Below, one piece after another: positions 21,987 through 24,281 of a stretch of DNA of 64,000 nucleotides. The position numbers and the translations under genes are program-made. The notes beneath the pieces were generated by a model that did not search any database, was not told where the DNA came from, and saw only the letters and a program-made list of their open reading frames with translations. Source of the DNA: Pelagibacteraceae bacterium AG-337-G06 (GTDB lineage: Bacteria > Pseudomonadota > Alphaproteobacteria > Pelagibacterales > AG-422-B15); the NCBI GenBank assembly GCA_003282175.1, contig QBZX01000004.1:1-64000 (forward strand), in the 5' to 3' direction. How positions within the stretch are numbered: position 1 is the stretch's first letter; each line of letters opens with the position of its first letter.

Positions 21987-22736
21987 GTGTTAATTATAGC
22001 GTCAATATTGTTAGGCTTAATATTTGGAAGTTTTATTGGCAGTACAGTATATAGGTTAGTACATAATAAATCTCTTTTAACACCTAGGTCATACTGTCCT
22101 CACTGCCACAGGACAATATTGTGGTATTACAATATTCCTTTTTTTTCTTACATATGGTTAAAAGCTAAAACAAAATGTTGTAAATCTTCAATTTCAAGCT
22201 TCTATCCTTTTATTGAAGTTTCAACGGTAATTATTTTTTCTATCAATATTTTCCTATTCCAAAATATTGATTTAATTTTAATGTCTTTTTTATCAGTTAT
22301 TTTATTAATTATTTTCTTTACAGATTACTATTATTTCTTAATTCATGATGCATTGGTTGCATTTTTTTTATTATTTACAATTGTAGCTTTATTTTATTTT
22401 CAATTAAATCCCTTTAATGTTTCTTTTTTGAGTGCAGTACTCTGTTCATTAATTTCAATGTTTATAATTTGGTCTATCGGGAGAATACATTTATTTTTAA
22501 GAAAAACTGAAGGCTTAGGGGTAGGAGATGTAAAGCTAATTGGAGTAATTAGTTTATGGACTGGATTTGTCTATCTCCCAATATTAATAATAATTTCATC
22601 TGTACTTGCAATTTGTCATATATTGATGACTAGTAAATTATTTATTCAAAAAGAAAGATTTATGACTGTTAAATCACCGTTCGGGAGTTATCTGAGTCTA
22701 ACCTTGTTAATTCTAATATATTTAAGCCAGTGGTAA
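21987..22736 (+). CDS. gspO: Prepilin leader peptidase, GspO/PilD type
   Basis: Inner-membrane aspartic protease that cleaves and N-methylates the pseudopilins. The start is GTG 21987; the 249-residue product begins at the first membrane helix with LGLIFGSFIGSTVYRL. The two catalytic aspartates are visible in FFTDYYYFLIHD and in GLGVGDVKLIG. The methylase-side cysteine motif is unusual: C37 and C40 form CPHC, but the second pair reads TKCC (C64, C65) rather than CxxC. It is divergent from gspC with 144 bp between starts, so it is probably co-regulated with the operon. Confidence 0.92.
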   Translation: MLIIASILLGLIFGSFIGSTVYRLVHNKSLLTPRSYCPHCHRTILWYYNIPFFSYIWLKAKTKCCKSSISSFYPFIEVSTVIIFSINIFLFQNIDLILMSFLSVILLIIFFTDYYYFLIHDALVAFFLLFTIVALFYFQLNPFNVSFLSAVLCSLISMFIIWSIGRIHLFLRKTEGLGVGDVKLIGVISLWTGFVYLPILIIISSVLAICHILMTSKLFIQKERFMTVKSPFGSYLSLTLLILIYLSQW

Positions 22737-22755
22737 TTATTATACGTCTTGATGC

Positions 22756-22807
22756 TGCCCCCACACGGACTTGAATCGCGAACCTATTGATTACAGGTCA
22801 ATTGCTC
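22756..22807 (-). pseudogene. Partial tRNA-Thr copy (3' part only)
   Basis: These 52 bases match the 3' part of the intact tRNA-Thr at 23275 (from the end of the D-arm through anticodon, T-arm and acceptor) at 49 positions. The anticodon TGT is kept. The 5' acceptor strand and the D-arm are missing, and no CCA is encoded, so it cannot fold to a tRNA. Its orientation and position relative to the intact gene match a duplicated attachment site. Confidence 0.88.
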
Positions 22808-22850
22808 GATATAATATTTAATAATTATAAAAAAAAATATGGAGTTATAA

Positions 22851-23123
22851 ATGTTTGTATCTTTTACCGATTGGGAATTTGACGGAAATGTTGAAAATGC
22901 AGTTGAAAATATGAAAGGTTTTTGGCCTGAGATGAAAAAGCACGGAGCAACTAATATGCGTGCAACAGTCACGGGAGAAAAGACACTCAGAACGATGACT
23001 ATCTGGAGCAGCGAAGAACAAGTGAAAGCTAACATCGATGAAATTAGAGCGGCCGCTGGTAAAGCTGTAGGCATGACCACAACAGGTGGAATGATGGGTA
23101 CAGTCGCAGTTGAGCTGGACTAA
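22851..23123 (+). CDS. Small antibiotic-biosynthesis-monooxygenase-like (dimeric alpha/beta barrel) protein
   Basis: The 90-residue protein has a GGAG ribosome-binding site at 22841-22844. It begins with a beta strand (MFVSFTDWEF), then a helix (NVENAVENMKGFWPEMKKHGA), strands around NMRATVTG and TLRTMTIWSS, a helix (EEQVKANIDEIRAAAGKAV) and a final strand (GTVAVELD). That order fits a ferredoxin-like ABM/EthD-type fold, which usually dimerises; the family call is by pattern and its function is unknown. It is the only gene between the tRNA-Thr fragment and the intact tRNA-Thr, and it looks more GC-rich than its neighbours, which fits acquired cargo. Confidence 0.72.
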   Translation: MFVSFTDWEFDGNVENAVENMKGFWPEMKKHGATNMRATVTGEKTLRTMTIWSSEEQVKANIDEIRAAAGKAVGMTTTGGMMGTVAVELD

Positions 23124-23124
23124 T

Positions 23125-23166
23125 AAATTGTTATTTAAAATAATTACCTTACAAACAATTTTTTCT
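23125..23166 (+). terminator. Candidate terminator after the small monooxygenase-like gene
   Basis: AAATTGTT (23125-23132) and AACAATTT (23154-23161) form an 8-bp stem with a 21-base loop, followed by a T-rich run. It begins 2 bp after the stop codon. The stem is AT-rich, so the strength is doubtful. Confidence 0.4.
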
Positions 23167-23274
23167 TTTTCTTTTGTTACTGAAAAGCTAATTGATATAA
23201 AATCTCATAAAGGATAGCATTATACTTTATGCAATCAGTTGGAAGAAGTGTGAGTGAGTTTTTGTTGGAATTCG

Positions 23275-23350
23275 TGGTGCCCCCACACGGACTTGAACCG
23301 CGAACCTATTGATTACAAATCAATTGCTCTACCAATTGAGCTATAGGGGC
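23275..23350 (-). tRNA. tRNA-Thr (anticodon UGU)
   Basis: Read on the minus strand: acceptor GCCCCTA pairing with TGGGGGC, D-arm GCTC...GAGC, anticodon arm ATTGA-TTTGTAA-TCAAT with anticodon TGT, T-arm CGCGG-TTCAAGT-CCGTG (one mismatch-like pair), discriminator A and an encoded CCA (23275-23277). Its 3' end points to the small monooxygenase-like gene and the partial copy beyond it. Confidence 0.96.
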
Positions 23351-23420: not shown

Positions 23421-23519
23421 ATGAAAAGATTTTTAGATTTTATTGGTGGACAGATAGCTCTTGCTTATCTTGTGGTATTTTTTATTCTTGTATTAGCGAT
23501 GATTTCCCTAGCGCTATAA
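23421..23519 (+). CDS. Possible 32-residue single-pass membrane protein
   Basis: ATG 23421 opens a frame MKRFLDFIGG... that is almost entirely one hydrophobic helix (QIALAYLVVFFILVLAMISLAL) with a basic N-terminus. It ends by overlapping the 3' end of rlmB by 6 bp on the opposite strand. No convincing Shine-Dalgarno sequence is visible, so it may be chance; the clean charge/hydrophobic layout is the only support. Confidence 0.35.
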   Translation: MKRFLDFIGGQIALAYLVVFFILVLAMISLAL

Positions 23520-24281
23520 AATTGAGTTAGAAATACTATAAAACGTAATCGCGGCAGTATTAGAAACATTTAAACTTTCCAATTCATTATTTATATCTAT
23601 TCTGATAATTTCGTCACATAATGAACTGGTTATCTTTCTTAGTCCTTTACTTTCTGATCCGAGAATGATGACCACTTTTTTTGGAAATTTCACTTCTTTT
23701 ATAGATTTACCTGCCTTCATTTCTAAACCATAAATCCAATAACCAGATTCCTTTAAAAATTTAATACAAGAACTTATGTTTTTTATTTTTGTGAAGGGAA
23801 CTTTATCTAGACTACTAGACGCTGCTTTTGTAAGAAAGGAATTTTCGCTTACAGAGTTATCATGAGTAAGTATTACTCCGTCAAGCTTGAATGCTAATGC
23901 AGATCTAAAAATTGCACCTACATTTTGTGAATCTTCTAATTGATCTAGTAAAACAATAATTGATCTATTCTTATTACAGTGAGCAAGAAATTCTTTTAGC
24001 TCTGGAATATTTAGTCTTTCCACTCTGAGACAAATGCCTTGGTGATTCGAAATGCCGCCTAACAAGTTTTCAATTTCCTCTCTCGTTTTTTTTCGCTTTA
24101 CAAATGTAAATTGTTTAATATCAACTTCGTGAATTAGCTTTTTTTCTGCCTCTATTGTGAAGTTTAGCTCATATTTTATCCTTTTCTCATTTGTTAAGGC
24201 GCCAACAACTGCATGATGACCATAGATCCAATAGTCTGAATTTTGCCTTTTTTTAGGGAGTTTTTTATACCTATTCTTCAT
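23514..24281 (-). CDS. rlmB: TrmH/SpoU-family rRNA 2'-O-methyltransferase, RlmB type
   Basis: Predicted to methylate the 2'-OH of a guanosine (G2251 in E. coli 23S rRNA) using S-adenosylmethionine. The 255 residues show a short substrate-binding N-terminal domain and the SPOUT knot domain: motif 1 LEDSQNVGAIFRSA, motif 2 VIILGSESKGL, and motif 3 ELESLNVSNTAAI. The location beside tRNA-Tyr-tRNA-Gly-tuf is common in alphaproteobacteria. The rRNA position modified is inferred from family and not proven. Confidence 0.9.
   Translation of the reverse strand: MKNRYKKLPKKRQNSDYWIYGHHAVVGALTNEKRIKYELNFTIEAEKKLIHEVDIKQFTFVKRKKTREEIENLLGGISNHQGICLRVERLNIPELKEFLAHCNKNRSIIVLLDQLEDSQNVGAIFRSALAFKLDGVILTHDNSVSENSFLTKAASSSLDKVPFTKIKNISSCIKFLKESGYWIYGLEMKAGKSIKEVKFPKKVVIILGSESKGLRKITSSLCDEIIRIDINNELESLNVSNTAAITFYSISNSIL

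Follow-up and report, generated by a model that had tools for sequence, protein, structure and literature searches.

The window, the 64,000 nucleotides of Pelagibacteraceae DNA that were analysed here, carries an intact tRNA-Thr(UGU) gene on the minus strand (23275..23350, ARAGORN), with an encoded CCA end; it represents the reconstituted attB/attL side of a small island. The displaced 3' fragment of the same tRNA, the attR side, lies at 22753..22807, also on the minus strand, is identical to the tRNA at 51 of 55 positions and ends just beyond the anticodon arm. Read directly from the sequence, the piece at 22756-22807 agrees with the 3' part of tRNA-Thr at 49 of 52 positions, with this piece 522 bp away from the tRNA gene and both in the same orientation. 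The second-best match to the 52-bp tRNA-Thr piece in the whole 64-kb window reaches 34/52, and a chance match is therefore ruled out. The island is bordered on its left by a gspO-like prepilin peptidase gene (21987..22736, plus strand, Pfam), which adjoins the tRNA in a relative (G024), and on its right by an rlmB-like SpoU methylase gene (23514..24281, minus strand); both lie outside the island. A previous, sequence-only reading of this DNA had described intact tRNA, cargo and 3' fragment as the remains of a tRNA-targeted mini-island. The match, its orientation and the order of elements were all correct, and the reading is supported overall. The hallmark of tRNA-targeted islands, an intact tRNA and its 3' fragment as direct repeats, is present; of the integrase that such islands encode themselves, the window holds a C-terminal remnant only.

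The island has one cargo gene (22851..23123, plus strand), an ORF encoding a 90-aa protein, with a GGAG ribosome-binding site at 22841-22844 on the same strand, ahead of the ATG. Its GC content is 43.6%, compared with a mean of 33.5% for ORFs in the window, and its GC3 is 38.5%, compared with 23.8% (sd 3.7). The AlphaFold2 model of the protein (pLDDT 91) is predicted to have the beta-alpha-beta-beta-alpha-beta topology of the ABM-type dimeric alpha+beta barrel, and the best PDB matches found by Foldseek are ABM, SnoaB and IsdG-type folds (E about 1e-4). None of the Pfam and NCBIfam family models matched the protein above cut-off, and "ABM-like" is used here as a model-based assignment at the level of the fold. 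In these respects the earlier description of a single ABM-like gene with its own ribosome-binding site and visibly higher GC is borne out. A terminator-like hairpin, which it also listed, was not found when the ABM copy in the window was scanned, though other ABM copies carry a clear one (gagtgggttgag..caacccactc). The 3' flank of the gene is shortened in the window (23124..23178, plus strand) and has TTACCTTACAARCAA in common with the longer flank in G007.

The claim that no integrase remains proved wrong. Positions 23179..23217 on the plus strand encode, in frame, the C-terminal end of a phage tyrosine integrase, its last ~13 codons (TEKLIDIKSHKG-stop; tblastn E=3.9e-5), and are followed by a phage attP P-arm (23218..23274, plus strand) that abuts tRNA-Thr. 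Both match the T7-like phage contig L130, to which positions 23180-23274 are 95.8% identical at the DNA level (E=1.4e-39). Elsewhere in the genus this stretch is absent, apart from a similar arm in G032 (84%, E=2.7e-12). The phage P'-arm, CACGCAGTYTAGCGGTGTTGGGAT, is found in 2 of 53 family genomes (G013 and G044), each time at a tRNA-Thr fragment, and the control gave 0 matches. With the P-arm in the window and in G032, and the P'-arm beside the fragments of G013 and G044, some units at this site bear what are, by their sequence, phage att arms. When the tRNA-adjacent stretch was compared with the phage collection at the DNA level, the matches listed all fell within the tRNA part. Beyond the integrase tail and the attP arm there is no recognisable phage gene in the window, which thus differs from an HTVC019P-type prophage, where an integrase, a T7-like RNA polymerase and structural genes are present. 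Either the ABM gene and the phage may have been parts of one element that lost its middle, or the phage may have inserted beside an older ABM unit, followed by deletion of the att site in between.

A predicted promoter on the att core

The att core corresponds to the anticodon arm, CTATTGATTACARRTCAATTG (22784..22804, plus strand). A pattern search at up to 3 mismatches located it in 35 of the 43 genus genomes, nearly always at tRNA-Thr or at the 3' end of a cupin gene, which is the second insertion site; a reversed control pattern gave two matches. Sequence conservation across ABM copies predicts a sigma-70-type promoter of the ABM gene at 22787..22815 (plus strand), whose -35 box, TTGATT (22787-22792), falls within the att core and whose -10 box, TATAAT (22810-22815), follows after a 17-bp spacer. 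All 17 ABM copies compared, including the four at the cupin site, have an unchanged TTGATT, a spacer of exactly 17 bp and then TATAAT, TATACT or TATGCT. Outside the -35 box, the T-arm part of the fragment has decayed in several copies (G008, G011, G023), and in the cupin-site copies the remainder of the tRNA fragment is missing and the -35 box is kept. Since the box is constant while other parts of the fragment decay, it is simplest to suppose that the att core is kept by selection for expression of the cargo, and the predicted promoter role of the core probably explains why the fragment persists. This promoter-in-att layout offers a possible reason for the survival of tRNA scars in genomes from which nearly everything else is deleted.

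The insertion site in relatives and the movement of the ABM unit

In the genus, the site reads as an upstream gene (gspO or a hydroxylase-like gene), zero to four units, tRNA-Thr and rlmB. The sequence-only reading had proposed searching relatives for empty sites and for larger cargo with an integrase between the two tRNA copies, and had regarded presence of the same arrangement in all relatives as evidence against itself. Empty sites, with tRNA-Thr directly beside the gspO or hydroxylase gene, make up 9 of the 31 displayed: G024 from the gspO clade, as well as G003, G018, G031, G036, G039, G012, G022 and G040. G024 is the closest relative; its alignment to the window gives a clean left junction, and its right flank is unrelated sequence. 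In G003, G018, G022, G031, G039, G040 and others, the match runs from the tRNA into rlmB. Occupied sites differ from one another as well: in G016 four units of about 400-515 bp each stand in tandem, and the cargo includes, besides ABM, an HNH nuclease (G035), a 199-aa protein (G013), lipoprotein-like proteins and membrane proteins. The arrangement is thus far from uniform, with the ABM gene itself present in 18 of 43 genus genomes. A larger island was also found, 7.6 kb long in G064; the expected integrase turned up on phages instead.

All 25 fragments that were measured stop between positions 47 and 55 of the tRNA copy, which is 76 nt long, and beyond that point identity is at chance level. 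Fragment ends confined to the anticodon-arm region are the mark of a site-specific integration that crosses over there, and not of a decaying duplicate. In the wider order, 7 of 41 readable SAR11 sites have a fragment, and the 10 units at these 41 sites are 0.7-7.6 kb long and contain no integrase; nor does any other island seen at the tRNA-Thr site, genus units included. Nearly all genus genomes have just two XerC/XerD-like integrases, and the extra integrases of G031 and G007 lie elsewhere, so an autonomous island with its own integrase at the tRNA-Thr site of the genus was rejected. We conclude that, in Pelagibacteraceae, very small islands insert preferentially at one hotspot, the 3' end of tRNA-Thr(UGU).

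Several other elements were encountered in these genomes. The G064 island (L062:1934-9546) lies between tRNA-Thr copies, and its genes include one for a type IIG restriction-methylase-like protein (PADLOC E=2.5e-284) and one for a helicase-like protein, but none for an integrase, which makes it a defence island at tRNA-Thr. Units of SAR11 g6 (L060-L066) share conserved arms beside the fragment, and several of their first genes begin 6-7 nt past a -10-like box, which suggests leaderless cargo transcripts. Contig 14 of G007 (L081:2196-7966) carries, by tRNA-Gly(gcc), a small element whose genes include integrase-like ones and one for a possible replication-initiator-like protein, and which could be a separate mobile element. 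On contig 1 of G031 (L080:4434-11841), a 415-aa phage-type integrase precedes a run of small genes and a gene for an 809-aa, possibly primase-like protein; no tRNA gene was found in the 13-kb stretch around this integrase.

The ABM gene lies at tRNA-Thr in 14 of the genomes that carry it and at the 3' end of the cupin gene in 4; most genus genomes have the cupin gene without ABM. The cupin-site copies retain the att core only, and because the tRNA T-arm is absent from them, a simple circle excised from the tRNA site fails to explain these copies. Between G016 and G042 the ABM gene is identical at 273 of 273 bp, compared with 74.1% for the neighbouring hydroxylase gene, and windowed identity rises from 60-86% to 98-100% at the tRNA fragment. 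Conversely, the near-sisters G030 and G042 share 98.9% identity in the hydroxylase flank and 93.4% in ABM. The ABM gene of the window is 97.8% identical to that of G030, the rlmB genes are 68.8% identical and the left neighbour gene is a different one. These identities show, at the level of sequence, that the ABM unit has passed from one clade to another and that the edge of the transferred unit coincides with the tRNA fragment. G008 combines its own promoter region with an ABM gene identical to that of G016, a mosaic within the cassette that implies homologous recombination inside the unit at least once. Most ABM units have a common form of ~400 bp with equal ends and no integrase tail. This recent clade-to-clade transfer, the second insertion site and the fragment-based promoter had escaped the sequence-only reading, whose view of the locus as an island is nevertheless supported.

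Relatives of the ABM protein with 64-88% identity occur in marine Rhodobacteraceae, SAR116, other alphaproteobacteria and one gammaproteobacterial MAG. On one Paracoccaceae contig (L177:2590-3330) the ABM gene again adjoins tRNA-Thr and lies between ~60-bp direct repeats (CCCTAGCCGAACAGAACCGCATCC...), possibly as another cassette-like unit. Another small gene, encoding a 72-aa protein (MENSEVIK...), is found with an att-like core both at tRNA-Thr and at the cupin site (e.g. L036:1439-2052, L085, L087) and stands in tandem with ABM in G005. The 72-aa and 199-aa cargo proteins have no match in viral contigs. The ABM gene matched none of 50,697 phage records and 72,556 plasmid records, and the IMG/VR viral contigs contain a single relative (57%, on L069); an origin of ABM as a phage moron was rejected on these grounds. 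Contig L069 itself (L069:12-7288, IMG/VR 2627853512_000001) is phage-like, with terminase, portal and HNH genes, and its five ABM-like small genes, one of them the 57% relative, look like a cluster of small morons.

Phages carrying the tRNA-Thr attP

In IMG/VR, 42 contigs contain the tRNA-Thr core, most of them as whole tRNA genes. In six (L115, L125, L130, L135, L141 and L150), a lone tRNA-Thr 3' end lies just downstream of a tyrosine-integrase-like gene. Exact 52/52 copies of the attP are present on L135, L138, L140 and L141; L138 and L140 begin at the att site, and L135 and L141 have a tyrosine integrase just upstream of it. L130, L135 and L141 all have integrases that match PF00589; in L130 the gene after the integrase encodes a T7-type RNA polymerase. 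The closest isolate integrases, 43-46% identical, come from HTVC019P-type (Autographivirales) pelagiphages. The phages found here share with that group a tyrosine integrase beside an attP tRNA 3' end, followed by a T7-like RNA polymerase, and the integrase relic and attP arm of the window are of the same kind. They differ in using tRNA-Thr as attP and in integrases that are at most 43-46% identical to those of isolates; HTVC022P, an HTVC019P-type pelagiphage, integrates at tRNA-Cys (PMC12753301). T7-like cyanophages integrate at a tRNA-Leu gene during lytic infection, and stable lysogeny is absent (PMC8776855), which sets a precedent for an integrase being active in passing infections.

Origin of the units and comparison with known systems

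We consider it probable that the window contains an integrase-less single-gene cassette at the 3' end of tRNA-Thr(UGU), beside what is left of a temperate, T7-like pelagiphage with the same integration site. The units at this site are best read as att-bounded cassettes of one gene each, the phage counterpart of CIMEs or additive islands. An integrase supplied in trans by a phage during infection would recombine the anticodon-arm core, and anything flanked by this core could then excise or integrate; once in place, cassettes would also be exchanged via homologous recombination. As the att core doubles as the predicted -35 box, the cargo should be expressed wherever it has landed, and this role would in turn protect the tRNA scar from deletion. 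The former suggestion of a deletion-reduced or satellite-like island came close to this reading and missed the integrase remnant.

Three other accounts were weighed against the cassette reading. A decayed tandem duplication of tRNA-Thr, with ABM between the copies by chance, would explain why a partial tRNA copy adjoins an intact one. It is so improbable that we regard it as refuted, since the missing 5' part is the same in all 25 fragments, whose endpoints fall within a span of 9 nt, since some sites are empty and since the fragments border different cargo. A more serious contender is a prophage relic in which ABM is a surviving moron. Here a T7-like pelagiphage with ABM close to attR would have integrated once, and nearly all of the DNA between ABM and the integrase tail would then have been lost. 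The positions of ABM at the attR side and of the integrase tail at the tRNA side are those expected of prophage ends, and the G008 mosaic and the more distant ABM relative on phage contig L069 (57%) also agree with it. However, the ABM gene was found on no tRNA-Thr-type phage contig or phage record, most ABM units have the single ~400-bp form with equal ends and without the integrase tail, and the unit is also found at a non-tRNA site. We therefore view as possible, though doubtful, this origin taken jointly with its corollary that the unit is now immobile and spread by descent and homologous recombination only.

It is also conceivable, if rather unlikely, that homologous recombination or transformation spreads the units through their tRNA and fragment arms, with a site-specific step at the first insertion only. 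The nearly identical tRNA and fragment sequences that border every unit would provide the arms, and the G008 mosaic and the different ABM alleles of the near-sisters G030 and G042 fit such exchange. Against it, homology between G016 and G042 beyond the tRNA arms is just 60-86%, the left neighbour genes differ between G000 and G030, and transfer between the tRNA and cupin sites has no common flanks to draw on.

Beyond the window, we tentatively propose that the att-bounded cassettes form a phage-run system in SAR11 and its relatives, in which units of ~0.4-2 kb, each a core with small cargo, may be moved, at the tRNA and at a second core-like site, by T7-like pelagiphage integrases acting in trans; the -35 box in the core would give expression at any landing site, and selection would keep the scar. 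Few cells in the ocean are as abundant as SAR11 bacteria, which exchange genes even though recognisable mobile elements are very scarce in them. Cassettes of this kind would tie single-gene exchange to one particular group of phages, and the prediction that follows is that infection itself reshuffles them. With one gene and an attachment site, the units are near the minimum for an integrated element, and a ~400-bp package that spreads between distantly related cells would allow single-gene swaps in genomes almost without mobile DNA.

Integron gene cassettes are single-gene mobile units bounded by recombination sites with an attC core, arranged in tandem and moved by an integrase acting in trans. 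The units described here resemble them as single genes between recombination sites, in their tandem arrangement and in the integrase that would act in trans. They differ in that the core is a tRNA anticodon arm and not attC, in the absence of an integron integrase, and in that each ABM cassette has its own predicted promoter on the att core. Phage satellites rely on a helper phage for packaging; the ABM unit has neither a packaging nor a replication gene. Tycheposons, as described in PMC10872708, are elements of 4-200 kb with their own recombinase; tRNA targeting, cargo, tyrosine recombinases and a host among streamlined marine plankton are common ground, and the unit in the window differs in being about 522 bp long and in having no recombinase gene.

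The closest known kinds are CIMEs and additive flexible islands with tRNA repeats. CIMEs keep flanking att sites, lack recombination genes, accumulate in tandem at one target gene and carry few cargo genes (PMC7563491). The units here likewise retain att sites in the absence of recombination genes, stand in tandem and have few cargo genes. In contrast to CIMEs, which derive from conjugative or mobilizable elements (ICEs and IMEs) and move by accretion and conjugation (PMC7563491), their att arms match T7-like phages, and they measure about 0.4-2 kb (one 7.6 kb), compared with 1.2-13 kb for CIMEs with cargo (PMC7563491). The additive island fGI-2 of Ca. Methylopumilus (PMC10872708) has repeats of a tRNA 3' end ahead of variable islands that start from 330 bp and one gene. 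The streamlined aquatic host, the tRNA 3' end repeats and the single-gene minimum are shared with the units here. The fGI-2 repeat comprises the last 20 nt of tRNA-Lys, whereas the unit edge here is the anticodon arm, and the passages on fGI-2 name no phage source, whereas a phage and an integrase remnant were identified here. Relative to these closest kinds, the units here differ in their phage-derived att arms, their ~400-bp size and the predicted promoter in the att core.
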